Shown here: positions 25,894 to 44,145 of the stretch, in pieces | Position numbering within the stretch: the first letter of the stretch is position 1 | How the letters are laid out: every line of letters begins with the position of its first letter | Source: a virus | DNA length: 64,000 nucleotides | Virus record (IMG/VR): IMGVR_UViG_3300044707_000140 | Span: 1-64,000 of that record | Reading direction: 5' to 3' (one strand) | Notes under the pieces: generated by a model | Database searches by the model: none | Told to the model about the DNA's origin: nothing | What the model saw: the letters and a program-made list of their open reading frames with translations, nothing else | Position numbers and translations under genes: made by a program

Positions 25894-26670
25894 TTATTGG
25901 TATTTATCTAACCATCCACCCTTGGTTGGTTTGTTATAGTTTGTAAAGTTAAGCAATTGGTCTAGCTTCTTAATGGGTTGAGCATCAGCATTATTTACAC
26001 TCACACCACCTTTAGCCATAGGATATTCTGTCACATATTCTCCATCAAACTCATAGTCTTCTCCTGGTTCCATGTATTGGACATCTCCTGTGTCAGATAT
26101 TCCGAGGAGGGGTTGATCTACACCCTCCATAGTGATTACATTTGAAGGGATGATGACAGGGCTTCCTACATTCTCAGGGTTCCAATATCCCATGGGATCT
26201 ACAGGAATATCACTACCATCCTGACTAATAGTCTTAGGTTTGAAGTCTAGTCCTGCTTGGTAGTATTTCATTTCCTGACCATTCTGTGCACTAGCCTTGG
26301 TCTTCTTAGCATAGGGACCGTTAGCAGGAGCAGCCCCTGATACACGTGCGTATGTGAATCCTACAGCACCAGGAAGAGATCCTCCCATAGCTAATTGCAT
26401 TGGGATAGGTTTAACACTGTCTCCCAACTGAGCCATAGGAACTGTTTGGTTAGCACCAGCCATAGCAGGCATGATGTTACCACCATCTTGAAACTGTCCA
26501 CCCCATGCAGGGCTGTAGTTACGTCCTTTGGTGTTGTATGCCCACCCTTTGAATCCAGGAGGCAGGCTCACATCAGAGTTGTTAGCGTTAGGTTTTTTAC
26601 CATAGTTATCTTTGGTCTTTTGTTTCAAGACCAATCCTCCTTGTTCATATTTATCTAACCAATTAGCCAT
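25894..26670 (-). CDS. small cargo-associated protein sharing a peptide with the capsid protein
   Basis: 258 residues, ending one base before the 1088-residue gene. It begins NWLDKYEQGG and ends GGWLDKYQ, so a WLDKY motif marks both ends. Residues 99-112 (LPGAVGFTYARVSG) are nearly identical to residues 6-19 of the putative major capsid protein (IPGLTGFTYARVAS), with several synonymous codon differences. QxG-type tags (FQDGG, AQLG, AQNG) resemble those in the next gene. The C-terminal part is acidic (YMEPGEDYEFDGEYVTE). No enzyme motif is visible. I infer a capsid-lumen protein linking cargo to shell or scaffold. Confidence 0.6.
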   Translation of the reverse strand: MANWLDKYEQGGLVLKQKTKDNYGKKPNANNSDVSLPPGFKGWAYNTKGRNYSPAWGGQFQDGGNIMPAMAGANQTVPMAQLGDSVKPIPMQLAMGGSLPGAVGFTYARVSGAAPANGPYAKKTKASAQNGQEMKYYQAGLDFKPKTISQDGSDIPVDPMGYWNPENVGSPVIIPSNVITMEGVDQPLLGISDTGDVQYMEPGEDYEFDGEYVTEYPMAKGGVSVNNADAQPIKKLDQLLNFTNYNKPTKGGWLDKYQ

Positions 26671-27537: not shown

Positions 27538-30500
27538 TTATAAAGGTGGTAGGGTTGTTGTTGTTGTAGTTGTTACTGGTGGTTCTGTTGTTGTAGTGGT
27601 GGTAGTACATACTATACAATCCTGACCACTTGTACAAGATATGCCACATAAGGTGATAATCACTCCTGGGTCAGAATAAGGCACCGCTTTAGTGCTAAAG
27701 CATAGGTTTTCAATAGATTCTGGTTCTATAGAAGTGTAAGAAATTTGTGCACTTCCACATTTATATCCAGCTACATAACGAATAGAATCTGTTGTGTTAT
27801 AAACAACATAACACTCACAAGGATAGGCAGTAGTGGTAGTAGTTGTTGTGCTAGTGCTAGTAGTAGTAGTTGTGATAATTTCACAAGCTACACCCTCTAA
27901 ATCACAGCCTGTATAAGCTGTTGTTGTAGTGGAGGTTGTAGATGTGGAAGTTGTTGTAGTGCTACTGGTGGTAGTGGTTGTAGTGTTTGGAACAAGATTA
28001 CCCACAACAGCTTCAAAATCTGAACAGCAATCATTGAGTCCTGAGTAGAAGAAATTGTTCTCACCAATGTACCAGTTAGGGATATAGCTATGGAAGCTTA
28101 TCCAACTCTTAGTATTGAAGTTAAAAGATACTGTCCAGCTCTTGTTACAGAAATATTCTGTATCTGTCAGGAACACTTCTGTTTTAATTAGTTTCTCTTC
28201 ACCACAGCATTCTACAGGCTTTTCTAAGTAGAACTTCTTATCTGCATCATCATATATGATATTATCCACCTTTGGAATATAGTCAAGTTTGGTTATCAGG
28301 ATGCGATCATATTTACTATCATACACCCCATGTAGACCAACACCAGTGAAATGATTGTCCACATCCAGGTTGGGGAAATAACGTAGGATTTCAAAGGCCA
28401 GATGGTCTGTAAAGAACCTGTTCATTCCTGATCCAAATCCTGATAAATCAACCGCTTGTGTACCACTGATAAGAAATACCTGACCACGTTTAGCATCTAT
28501 AGTCACTTGTCCTTGCGGTATCTTCAGGAGCATCTTGTTCTGGGTTCCTACATATCCCAAATCAGTTTCTGCAAAATCAATTGGGGGAGCTCCTCTGAAC
28601 AGTGAAGGATTACCAACATATGCTGCCTGAGGGTTGCTAGTATCAATAGTTAACAAGTTGTTGTACATCAACGTCTTGTTCTCAAATCTAGCCAAAATAG
28701 CTCTGTTCTGAATTCCATCTAAAGAGATGAGATCTCCAAAGTTTTGAGGGAAGTCAAAGTAAGATATTGCTCTGTAAACCAACCAGTTATTTACTCTGTT
28801 ATCAGCATCTATATTTTGAGGATCTGAGTAGATGGTTCTGAAAGGATACTGTGTATAACATATTGCCTTCCAGTCAAATGGTAGATGAGTGAATGTGTTT
28901 TCTCTGTTTTGCTTAGAGAATGTTACATTATAATAGTAGGTGTTGTCCTGAGCGATAGGAACGTAGCTTTCTTGCACCCAATCATCAGGAATACTTGTAC
29001 TTACATGAGGCCAGAAGTCTCCTTCTCTATTGTTAAAAGCTTGACGTAAATCAACGTTGTAAGAACTCTCACAATAGAAATAAGGGATTCCATAAGCAAA
29101 CTGGTACATCTTACCATCATAGAAAGTTCTACCATTACTAGTAATAGGAGTTTGACTATTAGGACAGTCAAGATTATTAGCCTTAATAGAGAAGAAGTTT
29201 GTCAATACAGCTGTCTCAATTGACGCATCTACAAGGATGGAACGTGCTGAGTGCCAGTATTCTGGATAAGCCACGTTACCTATCTCATCATAGAATATGT
29301 CACTATCATCAGGAGCATTCACACGGTTGTCAATAAAGAAAGGCAGTTTGGTCTTGAAGGCAAACTTGTTAATGAATGTATCACCACCAAAGAATGTAGC
29401 TGTAGCAGTTGTTGCAGGAGTGATGTCTTTTTGAAATCCTGTGTCCACTGTATCATAAGAATAAATCTGTCCGTATTGATTAACAAATATATTCTTGAGA
29501 GATCCATAATAAGAGATAACACTTATATATTCATCTTTAGCAGGAACAGAACAATTGTCTAGATTTCCATCAACACCTGCATCACTAAGTGTCATTCTAG
29601 ACCTATCATTTACAGTGCCTGATATAGTGGGGGTTTGATTAGGGAATGGAAGAGGATCTCTAGCAAAGCCAAGAGATGATTCTTTAGTTTTTAAATATAC
29701 AGAACTCTCTCTATTCCAGTTGTTTATATCCTTATTATCATTAACACCTTGTACACCAGGAATCAGGTATTGCTTGAGATCAAGTTCACGTTGCTTAACT
29801 CCTATTCCGTTAGCAATTGAATTACTATAGTCGTAGCTAGCAATTGAGTTGTAGGAATATGAATAGTTTTGTCTAGTGATACCGTTTACATATATTGTTA
29901 GATAGGCTTGATAGGCAGCAAATAGAGCAGTGGCATTGTATGCACCAGTGGTAATTACTGCTATTTGGTTAGCGCTATTTAATGCATCATTTTGAGCCTC
30001 AAGACTTACCAGTCTGTACATTGCATTATCTCTCACTTGTGTAAAGTGAGCCCTACCAGCACCAAATATTACGTTCTCTAGCTTTAGCACACCACCTAAG
30101 AATGGTTGCCCAAAGGATGTTTCAGGAGAGTTGAATACATGTCTATATTTAGATCCTTCATCTTTAAATCCATCAAGTTGACCTGGAGCACAGAAATCAT
30201 ATCCAACTTTGTCTGTTAGTTCAATACTATAACCACCATCACCACTTTTGTAGGTGGGAGGGTTAAGAGATGGTATGATTCTAACACCACCAAATAAAGA
30301 TCCATCTACAAACCACTGTCTTTGTTTAAGGGCAGACATCGTTCCATTAGGGTTGCAACATCCATTAGTTGGATTGAGAGCACAATATTCTGCCCAATCA
30401 GTATATCCTACAGGAGTAGGCAGTAAGCTTCCAGTAGCAGCATCTATTCCACAAGTACCAATAGGAGGATAGAAGTTAAATGTTGTACTATCAGAAGCTG

Positions 30501-32592
30501 CCACCGTAATCTTATACCAACTATATGTATTAGATATAATTGACCCCTTTGCTCCTTGATCAAGTGTAGGGGATGGAAAATCTAGTGCACACAGATTAAA
30601 TGACTCGTTCACAGGAAAATCACCACTTGCACCAATTGTTTTTGTAACACTTTCTCCTGAATAACAATCAATATAGTTTATGGTACCAGGTTCTGTTGCA
30701 TATACAGTGAACTGTCTACACACAGAGGATGTACTTCTAGATGCAAGAGGAACTGTGTAAGCATTACTGTTCTCTAACAAGAATGGATCTTGTCTAAGAT
30801 CGTTGTAAGGATAGTTAGGGAAATAGTATTCTTGACCCTCACGCTCATATTTACCCACATTTCTGAGGATACCCTTAGCCACGATGGACTTATTCGTGCT
30901 TCTATCACCACGTATAATCTTAAAGCCAGCTATCTGGTTTTTCTGTTCAGTGGTGAGACCAGACGCCTGAATAAGAGAACTTACTTGTTGAACATCTATT
31001 CTTACACCCATTGGGAATATTGCATCCCTTTGGATAGCCATAGAGTTTTGGCCTGTGAAGATGGCAGACTCAAATATAGGACTCACTAGAACATCTGGGA
31101 ACTTATGGTGTCTAATGGGTTGACCAGCCAAATCTCCCCACAACTCATCGTTGCAAGGATAGTCTTCTGTAGACTCCCAATAGCTAAACTCACCATATTG
31201 ATAAGGTCCTTTGTAATCTGTTGCTGAAGAATAGCCAGGAGAGAATCCTGTAACTGTAGCTGTGTTATATATCTTCCAATAGGGACTAGTTCCTGTTAAA
31301 GGATCTGGATCACCTATAAAGTCATCATTTGTTGGAGAAACAGGAGATAGGTCTAAAATGTTTGCAAGTCTACTAGGAATATGAAATCCATCAGTTTGCT
31401 TACCGTTGTTAAGCAGAAACACTATCTCAAAGGCATACACCTCATCCCTCAGATACCCTCTAAGGTTAGTGGCATTGAATGCATCAGCATATGTTTCTGT
31501 ATTAGGAATACGATAAGTTTCCCATAGAAGATTAATACCATTAGCTATCTTCTGGTAGTTAATTCTCTCTACAGATGTAAGTTGGTCCCAAACTAATATG
31601 TCACGTACAGCTGTTACATCCTGAGCAATCTCATAATATGGAAACTTCTCAAGTATATCATTGATTGTCAGACGGATGTTAGTTTTGTTCTGACCTGTAT
31701 AGGTAATCACCTGACTTAGACCATCAATGAAATAAGTGCCTATCAACTCTACAGAGGTGATAGCGTTTACAGTTTTAATAACTGCTACATTAAAATAATC
31801 ATATAGTCCTGTATTATCTAAGTTGCTGACAGTGAGCTCAATAGATCTACCCACCTGATAATTAAAATTAGCAGTGGTGATACTTGGATCAGCAATAGGA
31901 GTGGGATTGGTAACAGAGTAGTAGGAAGTGAAAGGATTTCCAGCAGGATCGGAATACTGAATAGCAAACTGATATGTACCTGCTTGAAGATCTCCTCCTG
32001 TGGTGATTCTAGTGACATCCAACTGAGGAATAATAAAATCAGGTTGAACGTTCAGTCCATTACAATCTATCTGATCACTGTACACAGGATCGCACGCAGG
32101 GGTGCCTCCTATAAGAATATAGGGTAGATTTTCTGGGTTGAGATCAATATATCTACGGGGATTAAGACCATCTGTCCAATACACCTCTGTTGTGCATTCT
32201 GTGATTCTGTGAACAGCCTTATGAATTGGATAGTTAATGTTGAAGTTGAGACAAGCGGGATTTACATAGGTGTGATAGATACAATCATTATTATCCATAT
32301 ACCCTATCTCAGAAGCACCTGTTTCTGGGTTGGTGATAAAGAATACATGTTTGCTTCTCTCTTGGATGAAGTGTGTACCTATTAATGCAAAGCCAGAAGG
32401 GAATGTAACGCAAAGTTCATTCCCTGGCTCATTCTGATAGTTAACAGAATTAGCATCAAAGTTTTCTACAGCAGCATTCAGCGCATACGTTAGCTTACCC
32501 TTAGGAATCTGGTTGAGGGTCTGATCGAGGTTTAAGCCAGTGGTAGCGTTGTTAAACTCCTGTCTAATATTGCCTTGTTCTTGCTCAGCCAT
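27538..32592 (-). CDS. tail stabilization/muzzle-like protein (P22 gp10-like) with poly-Thr C-terminus
   Basis: 1684 residues. The N-terminus has GLNLDQTLNQIPKGKLTYAL followed by a FPSGFALIGTHFIQ stretch, typical of the large distal tail ('muzzle' / Tstab) protein of crAss-like phages, related to P22 gp10. The body is rich in aromatic and Asn residues, as in large beta-rich tail proteins. The last ~150 residues alternate Thr/Ser-rich runs with short Cys-rich segments (TGCDLEGVACE; CECYVVYNTTDSIRY ... CGISC) and end in Thr-Pro repeats. These repeats are also present in fibre genes at 36-37 kb. It sits directly after the ring/tubular protein gene, as expected. It should form the tip of the short tail through which DNA and cargo exit. 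Confidence 0.75.
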   Translation of the reverse strand: MAEQEQGNIRQEFNNATTGLNLDQTLNQIPKGKLTYALNAAVENFDANSVNYQNEPGNELCVTFPSGFALIGTHFIQERSKHVFFITNPETGASEIGYMDNNDCIYHTYVNPACLNFNINYPIHKAVHRITECTTEVYWTDGLNPRRYIDLNPENLPYILIGGTPACDPVYSDQIDCNGLNVQPDFIIPQLDVTRITTGGDLQAGTYQFAIQYSDPAGNPFTSYYSVTNPTPIADPSITTANFNYQVGRSIELTVSNLDNTGLYDYFNVAVIKTVNAITSVELIGTYFIDGLSQVITYTGQNKTNIRLTINDILEKFPYYEIAQDVTAVRDILVWDQLTSVERINYQKIANGINLLWETYRIPNTETYADAFNATNLRGYLRDEVYAFEIVFLLNNGKQTDGFHIPSRLANILDLSPVSPTNDDFIGDPDPLTGTSPYWKIYNTATVTGFSPGYSSATDYKGPYQYGEFSYWESTEDYPCNDELWGDLAGQPIRHHKFPDVLVSPIFESAIFTGQNSMAIQRDAIFPMGVRIDVQQVSSLIQASGLTTEQKNQIAGFKIIRGDRSTNKSIVAKGILRNVGKYEREGQEYYFPNYPYNDLRQDPFLLENSNAYTVPLASRSTSSVCRQFTVYATEPGTINYIDCYSGESVTKTIGASGDFPVNESFNLCALDFPSPTLDQGAKGSIISNTYSWYKITVAASDSTTFNFYPPIGTCGIDAATGSLLPTPVGYTDWAEYCALNPTNGCCNPNGTMSALKQRQWFVDGSLFGGVRIIPSLNPPTYKSGDGGYSIELTDKVGYDFCAPGQLDGFKDEGSKYRHVFNSPETSFGQPFLGGVLKLENVIFGAGRAHFTQVRDNAMYRLVSLEAQNDALNSANQIAVITTGAYNATALFAAYQAYLTIYVNGITRQNYSYSYNSIASYDYSNSIANGIGVKQRELDLKQYLIPGVQGVNDNKDINNWNRESSVYLKTKESSLGFARDPLPFPNQTPTISGTVNDRSRMTLSDAGVDGNLDNCSVPAKDEYISVISYYGSLKNIFVNQYGQIYSYDTVDTGFQKDITPATTATATFFGGDTFINKFAFKTKLPFFIDNRVNAPDDSDIFYDEIGNVAYPEYWHSARSILVDASIETAVLTNFFSIKANNLDCPNSQTPITSNGRTFYDGKMYQFAYGIPYFYCESSYNVDLRQAFNNREGDFWPHVSTSIPDDWVQESYVPIAQDNTYYYNVTFSKQNRENTFTHLPFDWKAICYTQYPFRTIYSDPQNIDADNRVNNWLVYRAISYFDFPQNFGDLISLDGIQNRAILARFENKTLMYNNLLTIDTSNPQAAYVGNPSLFRGAPPIDFAETDLGYVGTQNKMLLKIPQGQVTIDAKRGQVFLISGTQAVDLSGFGSGMNRFFTDHLAFEILRYFPNLDVDNHFTGVGLHGVYDSKYDRILITKLDYIPKVDNIIYDDADKKFYLEKPVECCGEEKLIKTEVFLTDTEYFCNKSWTVSFNFNTKSWISFHSYIPNWYIGENNFFYSGLNDCCSDFEAVVGNLVPNTTTTTTSSTTTTSTSTTSTTTTAYTGCDLEGVACEIITTTTTSTSTTTTTTTAYPCECYVVYNTTDSIRYVAGYKCGSAQISYTSIEPESIENLCFSTKAVPYSDPGVIITLCGISCTSGQDCIVCTTTTTTTEPPVTTTTTTTLPPL
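27541..27606 (+). repeat. GTT/GTA/GTG trinucleotide tract (poly-Thr coding)
   Basis: A run of GTN triplets encoding Thr (with Pro) on the minus strand at the extreme C-terminus of the 1684-residue protein. Such tracts are prone to slippage and recombination with the similar tracts at 36.4-37.2 kb and 39.5 kb. Confidence 0.8.
27828..27990 (+). repeat. GTT/GTA/GTG trinucleotide tracts (poly-Thr coding)
   Basis: Two clusters of Thr/Ser codons flanking a short Cys-containing insert within the 1684-residue tail protein. Codons vary (ACA, ACT, ACC, AGC), so the amino acid pattern rather than an exact DNA repeat is maintained. Confidence 0.8.
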
Positions 32593-36205: not shown

Positions 36206-36787
36206 TTAAAGACCGCAAGGTCCTGTAGGTGTTATACTTCCACTTCCTCCAGTTTGAACAACTGTTCCAGTTTCTGCACATATTGATATGCCACCTGAAC
36301 CTACAGTTTGTGTTAAGAATTCACCTGAGCATGCAAACCACTCTATACTAATAGATGGACTACCCACCACATCATATTGTGTACAGTCTAAAGGAGCTTC
36401 TGTAGTGGTGGTGGTAGTTGTAGGTGGTGGCTCTGTAGTGGTTGTTGTAGTTGTTGTTGGAGGTACTTCTGTAGTGGTGCTTGTTGTAGTAGATGTACTA
36501 GTAGACGTACTAGTTGATGTACTTGTAGTGGTTGTAGAAGAAGTTGATGTTGTGGTGGTACACTCTCCACTTATTGTAATATCTATGTAATTGGTGCAAA
36601 GTGCACTATTAGACATCACCCTAATAATAGTGGTTCCATTAGGAACCAGAGATGTTGTGTATCCAGATAAAAGAGCCGCTTTACTCACACCAGTCTCGAA
36701 AGCTGATACAAACCCATCAACATCTGAGTAGAGATTGAATGGGCCTGTATCAGTTCCAGCTGTTGTTAATGTTATTGTTACAGTCAC
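36206..36787 (-). CDS. modular fibre/decoration protein with poly-Thr linker
   Basis: 193 residues. It starts at GTG because an in-frame TGA lies two codons upstream. Domain 1 (residues ~1-75: GPFNLYSD ... TGVSKAALLSG ... TTIIRVMSNSALC) resembles the N-terminus of the 288-residue protein at 26670. Next is a ~55-residue Thr/Ser/Pro-rich linker. Domain 2 (CTQYDVVGSPSISIEWFACS ... ISICAETG ... GPC) resembles the Cys-containing domain of the next gene and of the 1684-residue tail protein. It is therefore built from modules reused among virion proteins and is likely a surface-exposed fibre or decoration protein. A terminator follows its stop. Confidence 0.65.
   Translation of the reverse strand: MTVTITLTTAGTDTGPFNLYSDVDGFVSAFETGVSKAALLSGYTTSLVPNGTTIIRVMSNSALCTNYIDITISGECTTTTSTSSTTTTSTSTSTSTSTSTTTSTTTEVPPTTTTTTTTEPPPTTTTTTTEAPLDCTQYDVVGSPSISIEWFACSGEFLTQTVGSGGISICAETGTVVQTGGSGSITPTGPCGL
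36401..36560 (+). repeat. Thr/Ser-coding trinucleotide tract
   Basis: Long GTN/AGTN triplet tract on the plus strand, encoding a TTTTST-type linker with Pro-Pro interruptions in the 193-residue protein. It resembles tracts in three other late genes. Confidence 0.8.
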
Positions 36788-36798
36788 AAATCAGTTGT

Positions 36799-36898
36799 TT
36801 AGACAGTGGTTGTAGTGGTAGTAGTTGTGGGAGGTGCAATTGTTGTAGTGGTAGTGGTTGTAGGTGGTGTAATCGTAGTGGTTGTTGTAGTTGTGGGA
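36799..36898 (+). repeat. Thr-coding trinucleotide tract with Pro-Pro spacers
   Basis: C-terminal tract of the 187-residue protein: three Thr runs separated by Ala/Pro-Pro. At DNA level the plus strand is GTN-rich and near-repeats itself with a period of about 33-36 bases. Confidence 0.75.
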
Positions 36899-37362
36899 CA
36901 CGCTCCAAGAGTTGACAGCGTTACACCAGGGGTTGGTGGTACAACAACAGATTCTGTACAAGCACAGACGTAAATAGTACCAAACGCACCAACCACAGCA
37001 GTTGTATAAATACCACCACAAGAATAGTAAATAATCTCTGCAGGAGTAATTGTACTGTTGTTTACAGAGTAAAACTCACAAGAAGGACATGCTATTGTAG
37101 TTGTAGTGGTTGTTGTAGAGCTAGTGCTTGTGGTAGTTGTAGTAGTTGTTAAACTATTCACCAGTGTTTGAAGAGCTGTAATTTGACTCTGCAAATCACA
37201 CACCTCAGCATCTATTTTTTGTAGAGATACAGTGACTGTATCACATGTATGAATTCCTGTACAAGGCAGGTTAGGACCACTATAGCACACATTATCTGTT
37301 GGTGTACATGGAACATTACAGGGGTCTACAGGAGCGTAGTTAGGTTGATTGCAACAAGACAT
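36799..37362 (-). CDS. modular fibre protein with poly-Thr linkers
   Basis: 187 residues. The N-terminus is Cys-rich (SCCNQPNY, CNVPCTPTDN), then CYSGPNLPCTGIHTCDTVTV is followed by SLQKIDAEVCDLQSQI and a short coiled coil. This resembles the Y-x-G-x-x-L ... D-x-L-x-x-A-L-x-K module of the genes at 1-855 and 37383. A Thr/Ser run follows, then a Cys domain (CEFYSVNNSTITPAEIIYYS ... IYVCACTES ... GAC) and a C-terminal array of Thr runs separated by Pro-Pro. The pattern is that of a surface appendage with stalk-like linkers. Role in glycan binding is inferred only. Confidence 0.65.
   Translation of the reverse strand: MSCCNQPNYAPVDPCNVPCTPTDNVCYSGPNLPCTGIHTCDTVTVSLQKIDAEVCDLQSQITALQTLVNSLTTTTTTTSTSSTTTTTTTIACPSCEFYSVNNSTITPAEIIYYSCGGIYTTAVVGAFGTIYVCACTESVVVPPTPGVTLSTLGACPTTTTTTTITPPTTTTTTTIAPPTTTTTTTTV
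37093..37150 (+). repeat. Thr/Ser-coding trinucleotide tract
   Basis: Central linker of the 187-residue protein, encoding about 18 Thr/Ser residues between a coiled coil and a Cys domain. Confidence 0.75.
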
Positions 37363-37382: not shown

Positions 37383-38471
37383 TTAAGGAATATACATGAT
37401 ATAGTAACATCCAAGACCAGGCTGGAAGTTCGGGTGACCTAATCCTCCTCCTGCAGAACCAACACTGACTGCCACAGAAACTCCTGTAACTGCTGTGTTT
37501 GTGGTGGTTGACGAACTTTTTGTACCATCTTGATCCATGTAATCAGCAACCGCTCCTGGCTCATCTGGATCAGAAAATCCAGGTGCATACGCAAGAGTGT
37601 GTGTATGTCCAGGGTCAGTTACAGTGGCTGTAGCTGAGTGAGAGTGAGCAGCAATCTGAGCAGAGGTAAGTACAATAGAGTTGGCTCCTTGTGTTCCTAG
37701 TAATGTATAAGAAGGATTTCCAGCAACCGCAGGATCAACAGCAGGATTGAGGGGTCCTCCACCCATGCCTGTTGTAGTACCTACAGGTACACGCCCTCTT
37801 TTATCAGGAGTTCCGTTGTTACCATTACAGAGGTAGATTTTATCAAAAGCACCAATACCTGCACCAGATACATCGAAATTACCAGTCAGTGAACCATAGT
37901 ATTCAACAACAGTGAAAGGCACCATTCTATCCTTGTATGAAGTAGTAGGAGAAGGTGGTGTACAAGCTGCCACTAGAGCGCACAGTTCTGATTTCTTTAC
38001 ATAGTTAGTTTCAACATCTATTACAAAAGCATCAAAGTCAGCAATGTGTGCACAGAGCTTTGTAATTACTGCCTGAAGGATGGCATGAGTTCCAGAAGTG
38101 GAAGTTACACCATCTAGACATCCTACAGTGTAGGGTCCTTCTAGTGCAGCAAAGTCATCCTCTAGAGCAGTAACTCGTGTGTCTAGCTCACATACAGCTT
38201 TGATAATAGCATTGATTACATTAGGAAGTGTAAGGTCTTCACAGGCTACTAGATTCTTATTAACAATCTCACAAATGATTTGTGGGTTAATGTCTAGTTT
38301 AATACCTGTACCGTTTAGTGTAGAGACAAGAAATCCAATCAATGCTTGCTCTACATAAGAGAGCGAATCACCAGTTTTGATTCCCAAAATAGGAACATCA
38401 ATACCTGTATACTTAACACACTGATCAGAAACAATCTCTGTACATCCGTTATAGCAATTTGAGCAAGACAT
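37383..38471 (-). CDS. tail-collar-type fibre protein
   Basis: 362 residues. The N-terminus (CTEIVSDQCVKYTGIDVPIL, then GIKTGDSLSYVEQAL) carries the fibre module seen in neighbouring genes. A helical region follows (LEDDFAALEGPY; KLCAHIADFDAFVIDVETNY). The C-terminal ~180 residues resemble a phage tail-collar / microcystin-dependent-protein domain: MVPFTVVEYYGSL, KIYLCNGNNGTPDKRGRVPV, SAQIAAHSHSATATV and the ending HPNFQPGLGCYYIMYIP. Such domains form the trimeric knob of short fibres and bind receptors. I infer a host-recognition fibre; trimerization is expected from the family but not seen directly. Confidence 0.75.
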   Translation of the reverse strand: MSCSNCYNGCTEIVSDQCVKYTGIDVPILGIKTGDSLSYVEQALIGFLVSTLNGTGIKLDINPQIICEIVNKNLVACEDLTLPNVINAIIKAVCELDTRVTALEDDFAALEGPYTVGCLDGVTSTSGTHAILQAVITKLCAHIADFDAFVIDVETNYVKKSELCALVAACTPPSPTTSYKDRMVPFTVVEYYGSLTGNFDVSGAGIGAFDKIYLCNGNNGTPDKRGRVPVGTTTGMGGGPLNPAVDPAVAGNPSYTLLGTQGANSIVLTSAQIAAHSHSATATVTDPGHTHTLAYAPGFSDPDEPGAVADYMDQDGTKSSSTTTNTAVTGVSVAVSVGSAGGGLGHPNFQPGLGCYYIMYIP

Positions 38472-39508: not shown

Positions 39509-40696
39509 TTACGGAATCAAAGTTGATGTAGTAGTAGTAGAAGGCCATACAGTGGTTGTGGTAGATGTAGTGGTGATACAAGAGTTATCAGCAGTTACAG
39601 TACCAAGACCAGCCTCAAGAACAGCCTCAATCAATCCACCAATTGGGTTCGCAGAACCATTGGATTGTGTTTGAGGAGTAGCAATGATTACAGTGCTGTC
39701 TTCAAAGATGTAGTCACCCCATTGATAAGTAGATTTGTCATAAGTGTTGAACTTGATGTAGTAAGTGTCATAAGTAACACCATCACTTACCCAGCTTTCA
39801 AAGTTCTCGTTATAACCATTCATTCTGTAGAGGTGCTTCAAATATCCAGCCTGATAGCTGTAGAAGTTCTTCTCCAATTGAGCAATCTCAGCAGAAGTAC
39901 CAACAGCGTAAGAAGAACGCTGAATGATTACAGGAACTGCTGCAGTGTTACAAGCATCAGCAACGATGAAGTCAGCTGTAGTTGCAGGTCCATTGATAAT
40001 GAACGTACGGAACCACATGCGGTCATACTCGAAAGGAAATGCTGCCACATCACAAGGCTGACCATATTTAGTAAGAGGCTTACCAGTGATACGGAGAACA
40101 GCGTTTTGGTCGTTACCAAGTCTCTGGAACTGATAGAAGTCAGAGAAAGTGATGTTGTCAGGGTTGTTACCAGGAGCCTGATACAGGAAGTGAAGGATGA
40201 TGTCATCGATCAAAGCAGGCACATCAACAGTAGTACAAGGATCACCACCACAATCGCAACAAGGTGCATTTACAGTTACTGAACGAGTGAAACCGTTGAA
40301 GTACAGAGTGTCTAAGTAGCTAGAGTGAGCACGCAAAGTTACAGTGATAACATCACCACACTGTACGTTCCAATCTCCAACATCTGTAATCTGAGTGATA
40401 GGAGTAGGGCAACCTTGCACCTTGTACCACTCAGTTACGTTGCTGTTGCAACCAGATCCTGAAGGACAACCTTTAATCTTATCAGAACGCTTAGAGCCTT
40501 GCAGATAAGTGTTAGTACGGCCCTGCGCAACATAGAAATAAGGAGCAGCAGCGATGTTACCAGCTGTTGCAAGAGTGTAGTCATTGCGGAATATACCCAC
40601 CTGACCTGCTGTTAAATCTTGCGTAGATCCAGAGCTAGGGAGCGCAGTTTGCCCTACTGGTACTACGAACAGCGTAGTTAATGAAAAATCAGCCAT
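39509..40696 (-). CDS. abundant virion protein, candidate capsid auxiliary/decoration protein
   Basis: 395 residues. It begins ADFSLTTLFVVPVGQTALPS and has many beta-type segments and Cys pairs (CCDCGGDPC near the middle). Its last ~25 residues are TTTSTTTTVWPSTTTTSTLI, a short version of the poly-Thr tails of the fibre genes. Codon choice is even and similar to that of the capsid gene, and a strong terminator follows, both suggesting high expression. crAss-like phages carry an auxiliary capsid protein in this zone; I infer that role but a major tail-ring component remains possible. Confidence 0.55.
   Translation of the reverse strand: MADFSLTTLFVVPVGQTALPSSGSTQDLTAGQVGIFRNDYTLATAGNIAAAPYFYVAQGRTNTYLQGSKRSDKIKGCPSGSGCNSNVTEWYKVQGCPTPITQITDVGDWNVQCGDVITVTLRAHSSYLDTLYFNGFTRSVTVNAPCCDCGGDPCTTVDVPALIDDIILHFLYQAPGNNPDNITFSDFYQFQRLGNDQNAVLRITGKPLTKYGQPCDVAAFPFEYDRMWFRTFIINGPATTADFIVADACNTAAVPVIIQRSSYAVGTSAEIAQLEKNFYSYQAGYLKHLYRMNGYNENFESWVSDGVTYDTYYIKFNTYDKSTYQWGDYIFEDSTVIIATPQTQSNGSANPIGGLIEAVLEAGLGTVTADNSCITTTSTTTTVWPSTTTTSTLIP
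39520..39573 (+). repeat. short Thr-coding tract
   Basis: GTN-rich plus-strand tract encoding the poly-Thr C-terminus of the 395-residue protein, the fourth late gene bearing this low-complexity type. Confidence 0.7.
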
Positions 40697-42592: not shown

Positions 42593-44145
42593 TAGAACTG
42601 TGGAATTTCTTCAATAAGAACTGTACGAGACAAGTCCTCAATGAATACATCACAACGATCCTTCATCCAGATTTCATATCCTGGGAATTTGTTCGCAGAG
42701 CTCATACCCTGAGACTTAGCAAAGCCTAAGTGGTGGCGAGTTCCATCGATATATCCCCAAGTCATAGAAGGTGCACCCTTCATACGAACTTCACGGATGT
42801 TGTTAACCATAGAGCCATCAGACATTGGAGATACGTCGAACACCATGAATACAGGTGTAGACTTCTTGTTCTGTCCAAATTCTAGGTTAGATTGAGGAAG
42901 GTCAAGTTCTTTCAGGTGAATCAGTTCAACACGACCAGTCTCACGAGTTACCATTGCATCGAATGCAAAGTTGTAAGTGATGTGTTGTCCTTCGCCCTGC
43001 AGGTAACGGTTTCCGCTATCAGCTATGAAGCTAAGACCACTGTTCAAAGCGTCTGTCTTCAAAGCTTGTTGGAACACGTCAAAACCTGCTTCGTTAGTAT
43101 ACATTTTAACACGACGGTCTTTAACATCCACACGACGATAGAACAGGTCACCAAACACAGAACGGATCAGGTTGGCAGTAAATTCACCACGGTTGTATTG
43201 AACCAGGTTACCGTTGTTACGCATGCGGTGGTAAACACCAGCAGAAGTACGCTTAAGTTCTTGCTTGCTACCGTTAGTCTTAACAGTACCAGGACGAGAC
43301 CAAATCATACGCTTAACTTTCAACTCAAGCATAGATTTACGCATCCAGAACTCAATAAATGGCTCCCATTTAACATCGTTACGAGTTAAAGGAAGTTGGT
43401 TACGACGCTGAGGTGCATATACAAGGATATCCAAAGGACGTCCTGCAGAGTCACGCATCATTTTGTCATCAGCCCACTCAGTGATTTTGTGCTCAAAACC
43501 ATATGCAGAACCTAAAGATTCAAACATTGTGATTTGCTCACCCAAACGAGGAAGACCTAACAAATCTTGATCGAACTCACCAATTGCAGCATCAACCAAC
43601 TCAAGCTCGATACCTACTTGTAAGAAAGTAGAGCTAACGAAATCTACAGTTGGGTTGTCTGTAACCAAAGTGAAGCTATAAAGGAATCCCATGTTCCAAG
43701 GAATTGGGTCCTTAATAACGTAGAAACGAGGACCATACTGACGGCTACCAACAGAAACGATTGCGTTCTTAGAGAACTCGTTTGTGTCAAGTACCAATTG
43801 GAACTCTTGTCCATCGATACCAGGCTTGCTCAACTCAAGAGTTGAGTTAGGTACATCGATGATTTTGGGGAATTTGTAGGGAACAGCTACTTGCCATTTC
43901 CAAGCATCGCTATTATTATCAATGTAATAAGGCGTGCTTTTGTTGATCATGTCAAGGAAGTCATTGCTGTACAGAGAGCTCTGCGTATAGAGACTGATGA
44001 TCTTCTTGTCGTAATCAGCAGGCTCAGTTGAGTGAAAGCTCTCCAGGTGGTTAGCGTCAGTTAGCTTACCTACAGCACGCTTGTCCATAGAAGCGACACG
44101 AGCATACGTGAAGCCAGTTAGACCTGGGATTGTTTGAATTGCCAT
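42592..44145 (-). CDS. major capsid protein (HK97-fold candidate)
   Basis: 517 residues, close to the usual size of crAss-like major capsid proteins, placed right after the scaffold-like gene and downstream of portal and TerL. The N-terminus IPGLTGFTYARVAS contains a peptide repeated in the cargo-associated protein at 25894. The body has even codon use and mixed alpha/beta segments (GFLYSFTLVTDNPTVDFVSS; WADDKMMRDSAGRPLDILVY) and ends EDLSRTVLIEEIPQF. An unusual hairpin array follows the stop. It should build the icosahedral shell. I do not see a cleaved prohead region within it. Confidence 0.75.
   Translation of the reverse strand: MAIQTIPGLTGFTYARVASMDKRAVGKLTDANHLESFHSTEPADYDKKIISLYTQSSLYSNDFLDMINKSTPYYIDNNSDAWKWQVAVPYKFPKIIDVPNSTLELSKPGIDGQEFQLVLDTNEFSKNAIVSVGSRQYGPRFYVIKDPIPWNMGFLYSFTLVTDNPTVDFVSSTFLQVGIELELVDAAIGEFDQDLLGLPRLGEQITMFESLGSAYGFEHKITEWADDKMMRDSAGRPLDILVYAPQRRNQLPLTRNDVKWEPFIEFWMRKSMLELKVKRMIWSRPGTVKTNGSKQELKRTSAGVYHRMRNNGNLVQYNRGEFTANLIRSVFGDLFYRRVDVKDRRVKMYTNEAGFDVFQQALKTDALNSGLSFIADSGNRYLQGEGQHITYNFAFDAMVTRETGRVELIHLKELDLPQSNLEFGQNKKSTPVFMVFDVSPMSDGSMVNNIREVRMKGAPSMTWGYIDGTRHHLGFAKSQGMSSANKFPGYEIWMKDRCDVFIEDLSRTVLIEEIPQF

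Follow-up and report, generated by a model that had tools for sequence, protein, structure and literature searches.

A Hypervariable Modular Gene of Environmental crAss-like Phages and a Candidate Head-Loading Motif at Its Joints

The Locus and Its Genes

The window, which is the whole stretch of 64,000 nucleotides that was analysed, belongs to a viral record of 98,080 bases (IMG/VR record IMGVR_UViG_3300044707_000140). It contains P0001, a pared-down version of a modular gene that is hypervariable among relatives, located directly before a gene of 1088 amino acids (Table 1). By gene order, the larger gene takes the place of cargo protein C1 when compared with the cargo genes of phage crAss001 (PMC10172136). 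BLASTP detects no homology between its product and crAss001 gp45 (best E 0.24), and the label “C1” is therefore positional only. A single open reading frame (ORF) joins P0001 to the C1-position gene in four distinct relatives (L104, L245, L251, and L158).

The gene that the initial annotation had taken for a putative capsid gene encodes the crassvirus major capsid protein, as judged from its Pfam match. It lies in one block with genes matching CrAss_Ring_1 (E 3.5e-9), CrAss_Ring_2 (E 3e-17) and P22_portal (E 2.3e-14), and on the basis of these capsid, ring and P22-like portal genes the record is assigned to a Crassvirales-type phage. The capsid protein has no match among PDB sequences, and its monomer model (mean pLDDT 45, about 25 at the N-terminus) was of too low confidence for use. 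Threonine-rich, low-complexity stretches are common to the virion-region ORFs at 27538-32592, 36206-36787, 36799-37362 and 39509-40696, at or near the C-terminus in the first and the last of these, and are also found in two small ORFs beyond the window.

Table 1. Coordinates of the genes, spacers, junctions and peptides discussed in the text.
Feature	Position	Strand	Basis or remark
Major capsid protein, 517 aa	42592..44145	-	PF23898, E 1.1e-26; phrog_11589, E 3e-31
1088-aa gene at the position of crassvirus cargo protein C1	22626..25892	-	Gene order; carries KAQIG, KAQVG, KAQGG, KAQFG
P0001, 258 aa, minimal form of a hypervariable modular gene	25894..26670	-	109 distinct homologous ORFs
N-terminal WLDKY, residues 4-8	26647..26661	-	WLxxY enrichment in homologs
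FQDGG, cassette junction, residues 60-64	26479..26493	-	Inserts in L144, L214, L219, L238, others
MAQLG, cassette junction, residues 79-83	26422..26436	-	Inserts in L113, L115, L148
Conserved spacer GGSLPGAVGFTYARVSGAAPANGPYAKKTKASAQNG, residues 96-131	26278..26385	-	Flanking sites in homologs
LPGAVGFTYARVSG, P0001 peptide resembling the capsid, residues 99-112	26335..26376	-	
SAQNG, main cassette junction, residues 127-131	26278..26292	-	Inserts after the site in L105, L109, L148, L150, others
ISQDG, cassette junction, residues 148-152	26215..26229	-	Inserts in L113, L117, L125, L217, others
GYWNP...GISDTGD domain, residues 154-218	26017..26211	-	Lbo-JY46 match; weak phi4:1 gp40 match
C-terminal GGWLDKYQ, residues 251-258	25897..25920	-	Commonest homolog C-termini are of GGWL[DN]KY type
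IPGLTGFTYARVAS, capsid peptide, capsid residues 6-19	44089..44130	-	Near-invariant across 136 capsid loci

Anatomy of the P0001 Family

The relatives of P0001, drawn from viral contigs, range from 132 to 1825 amino acids, and their inserts fall at a small number of fixed positions. They differ from one another by the stretches inserted between common spacers, which are WLDKY, SPAWGGQF, the GFTYAR module, EMKYYQxGLDFKPKTIS, the GYWNP domain and a C-terminal GGWLDKY. Both the terminal motif and the joint motif are far more frequent in the family than expected, with 239 occurrences of WLxxY observed against 4.7 expected and 282 of [AS]QxG against 43. The GYWNP domain matches a sequence of Lbo-JY46 (49%, E 7e-9) and, weakly, gp40 of Cellulophaga phage phi4:1, a virion protein by MS/MS (36%, E 0.01). 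Pfam searches with eight long homologs gave nothing above the cut-off and two sub-threshold matches in a single homolog.

Inserts tend to start and stop at short glycine-containing sites. A QxG or GG motif stands at 61 of 90 left insert ends and 58 of 90 right ends, compared with 23% and 33% at random positions; the ends, placed by BLAST, are only approximate, and roughly one in three has no such motif. The GFTYAR peptide itself lies within the 36-residue spacer that immediately precedes the main junction, SAQNG. An xGG-type site is found at most 8 residues before this spacer in 108/109 homologs and a SAQxG-type site at most 34 residues after it in 109/109, counts to which homologs retrieved with queries containing SAQNG contribute. 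The second half of the spacer occurs in two exchangeable forms, PSNGPYAKKTKASAQNG and PSKGPRRNQTDVTDASAQNG (L207, L208, L210, L217, and others). At the other end of the gene, an alternative N-terminal module, CxCGHSW...CxxCG, replaces the MANWLDKY start in L115, L143, L148 and others; it is a possible zinc-binding knuckle, and the CGHxW form is present in 19 of the 109 homologs.

An HExxH motif is present in 22/109 homologs. In place of the lone SAQNG of the window, L105 has SAQDG and SIAQNG with a zincin-like cassette of 267 residues between them. Six relatives carry this cassette too, and HExxHxxD is invariant in the seven. The predicted fold (mean pLDDT 87) has no match among PDB folds below E 0.001, and its nearest counterparts are the 739-aa structural protein gp41 of phi4:1 and a protein of crAssphage cr125_1. 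By sequence too, phi4:1 gp41 aligns to the cassette; gp41 and its neighbour gp40 are both annotated as virion proteins by MS/MS.

The Peptide Shared with the Capsid

A 14-residue peptide of P0001 had been reported to recur near the N-terminus of the capsid protein, and both copies are indeed present, each on the minus strand, in the 258-aa and the 517-aa ORF. The claim that the match is kept at the protein level also holds, since GFTYARV is identical in the two proteins while its codons differ at five positions, all of them synonymous. A scan of the six frames of the 98,080-base record locates PGxxGxxYAR, G[FMHN]xYAR and FTYAR only in P0001 and the capsid, bearing out the expectation that the peptide would be confined to the capsid and to the gene before the large cargo gene.

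Is this likeness greater than chance would provide? The heptamer GFTYARV is the sole 7-mer in common among the 34 proteins of the window, and at least one common 7-mer is found in 30% of shuffled proteomes. The ungapped score between P0001 and the capsid, 53, is attained in 0.2% of pair shuffles. A second local similarity relates residues 169-201 of P0001 (26068-26166) to residues 9-41 of a virion-region protein encoded at 37383-38471 (BLASTP E 0.003), and its score is the same. For the 36-residue module, the score against the capsid was attained in 0/2000 shuffles, and an equal score against any window protein at a frequency of 0.002; the corresponding values for modules of relatives are 0.008 (FS-type), 0.08 (MM-type) and 0.15 (HM-type). 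The match between P0001 and the capsid is thus real and conserved. After the search space has been counted, its excess over chance is modest and the likeness borderline, and divergent modules lose the match.

Nearly all P0001 homologs bear [LIM]PG[AS]xG[FMNH][TSM]YAR[TVH] and retain the PGxxGxxYAR core, so that the peptide is kept in relatives, as the check proposed for it had asked. The usual last residue is T, with V in a minority of homologs, which makes the V of the window a minority reading. The capsids of these records show IPGLTGFTYARVASMDKR with hardly any change, while the module varies at the very positions that make the match (F to M, N or H; T to S or M; V to T or H); the module therefore drifts against a near-constant capsid. 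In one record, a capsid variant GFQYAR even stands alongside an unchanged GFTYAR module. None of the capsids sampled from crAss001, phi14:2, FpV4, five Suoliviridae and Lbo-JY46 contains the peptide; those of the Lbo-JY46 group have, in the corresponding position, a PSLTGF block that is related to it. From the initial interpretation, the conservation of the peptide, its confinement to two genes and the position of P0001 directly before a cargo-type gene survive, whereas the proposal of capsid mimicry or of a shared partner is unsupported, because the module and capsid peptides do not change together.

A QxG Motif Common to Cargo-Type and Basic Proteins

A QxG motif preceded by K, A, S or M is common to P0001, to the C1-position gene and to small basic proteins encoded in a cluster, and it is a far stronger shared short motif than GFTYARV. 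Across 53 homologs of the C1-position gene, KxQxG occurs 111 times where shuffles give 9.5; a comparison set of 248 other large ORFs contains it three times. Per 1000 residues this amounts to 1.94 and 0.011, respectively, a difference of about 180-fold.

The record also contains, beyond the window at 86133-88205, a run of five small and very basic ORFs on the minus strand that carry the tag, one of them with DUF6321. In four of the five genes the tag falls within the first 10 or 11 residues (MGKIKKYQTGG, MGKISKAQFG, MRHIKKAQRG, and MAKVKKAQDG). In the fifth, it is found at an internal methionine (MPRKAQKG), which may be the true start. The pattern recurs in relatives, where KxQxG is located in the first 25 residues of 80/213 basic ORFs and of 1/604 other ORFs; the controls for the basic ORFs gave 5/205 for internal windows and 0.85 for shuffles. 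The tag begins at residue 6 in 55 of the 80 tagged basic ORFs, with the form MxxxKKAQxG. One Lbo-JY46 protein begins MKIRIIGLPKAQIG, and phi4:1 gp40 contains repeated [FY]QxGG.

Interpretation

We favor a reading, to which we assign a probability of about one half, in which P0001 would be a minimal modular carrier, the likeness of GFTYAR to the capsid a coincidence and [K/S/M]AQxG a head-loading signal. Conserved spacers would be joined at short QxG/GG sites, between which relatives hold enzyme-like cassettes. The GFTYAR module would serve the carrier as a spacer or for docking, next to the main cassette site; LPGAVGFTYARV, as part of one spacer just before SAQNG, would be kept for the spacer’s own role, and it most likely resembles the capsid N-terminus by coincidence, aided by the minority V of the window. 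The motif [K/S/M]AQxG, common to the C1-position gene (as repeats), the joints of P0001 and the N-termini of small basic proteins, is most likely a head-loading signal and perhaps a processing site too, in the manner of the capsid targeting sequence of T4. Sites of the KAQxG type would thus load cargo and may also release it. A P0001-type protein would probably be packaged into the head, from which it would be ejected along with the C1-position protein; its virion location, loading, ejection and cleavage are all inferred. Points that weigh against this reading are the lack of gp45 homology in the BLASTP search, the lack of a recognised maturation protease among the virion-region genes scanned, the share of imprecisely placed insert ends that have no motif, and the module-capsid score, which exceeds that of shuffles for the module taken alone. 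The signal shared by the cargo would then be [K/A]QxG rather than GFTYARV.

What else could the two motifs do? It is rather unlikely that the peptide copies the capsid N-terminus, enabling the cargo to bind the site of the capsid N-arm or a common partner such as the scaffold or the portal. The restriction of the peptide to two proteins of the genome, the conservation of both copies, an identity kept at the protein level and the module-capsid score unmatched in the 2000 shuffles are what such mimicry would predict. However, co-variation is missing between a constant capsid and a drifting module, down to the GFQYAR capsid paired with a GFTYAR module; HM- and MM-type modules do no better than chance at window scale, and other crassvirus capsids sampled do without the peptide. 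A loose partner common to module and capsid may be compatible with the conservation data. Gene conversion, by which capsid DNA would recently have been copied into P0001, was rejected on the codon differences in GFTYARV: its one point in favor is the similarity at the protein level, and with five synonymous differences in seven identical codons, in a single short ungapped block, it is left with next to no probability. GFTYAR could also be the site at which one maturation protease cleaves both capsid and cargo, much as in other phages a single motif marks where the prohead protease cuts both the capsid N-terminus and internal proteins (PMC7411985). This appears highly improbable, given that the capsid lacks the QxG motif seen in the cargo genes, that family matches reveal no maturation protease in the virion-region genes scanned and that the capsid peptide, running from residue 6 on, leaves little to remove.

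For the QxG sites, the alternative is that they are recombination-prone joints or flexible linkers that hold no loading or processing signal. Inserts do begin and end at these sites, and glycine-rich linkers are flexible. Yet the same motif occupies a fixed N-terminal position in separate basic proteins, for which no cassette exchange is needed, and it is enriched in the C1-position gene, so this explanation seems doubtful. The modular carrier with its QxG joints is the stronger finding, and mimicry of the capsid is not demonstrated.

To our knowledge, how crassviruses select the proteins that are loaded beside the genome is not settled. Somewhat more tentatively than for P0001 itself, we propose that KAQxG may be a portable head-loading signal in environmental crAss-like phages, one that would mark the N-termini of a family of basic head proteins encoded in tandem as well as the joints of a cassette-swapping carrier (P0001 and the C1-position gene) whose enzymes would be ejected into the host. 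With one motif marking both the starts of basic proteins and the joints of a variable carrier, such a loading rule is directly testable. If it holds, the cargo of uncultured crAss-like phages could be listed from sequence alone, and hypervariable cassettes in a carrier of this kind would suggest an arms race waged with injected proteins. The literature searched, in which few subscription papers were covered, contains no description of WLDKY, of KAQ-type motifs, of Lbo-JY46 or of modular ejected phage proteins, nor of the modular carrier and its QxG joints.

Comparison with Known Systems

In T4, the small basic internal proteins reach the head by way of an N-terminal capsid targeting sequence of 10 residues, which the prohead protease afterwards cuts off (PMC9026906, PMC7411985). 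The anatomy found here resembles such a loading signal; membership of a T4-type system is not claimed. The likeness to IPI-IPIII and Alt lies in a short N-terminal peptide of about 10 residues borne by several small, basic and otherwise different proteins, which it is proposed to guide into the head. The T4 sequence is, however, another motif, while K-A-Q-x-G, here a candidate signal, is also repeated inside two large proteins, and nothing points to common descent of the two.

The likeness to the cargo proteins C1 and C2 of crAss001 is positional, since P0001 and the 1088-aa gene follow muzzle-type genes as the crAss001 cargo genes do (PMC10172136); gp45 and gp46 of crAss001 are without the GFTYAR module. 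In phi4:1, the weak match to residues 154-218 of P0001 is at the start of gp40, which also has the [FY]QxGG repeats, and the domain at the end of gp41 is zincin-like and resembles the L105 cassette. No GFTYAR module was noted in either protein and, as far as seen, the domains are in separate genes rather than in exchangeable cassettes.

Polymorphic toxin systems combine a constant carrier with exchangeable enzyme-like domains. The P0001 family shares this arrangement, and differs from them in placing its cassettes at several internal joints of a gene of the phage structural region.
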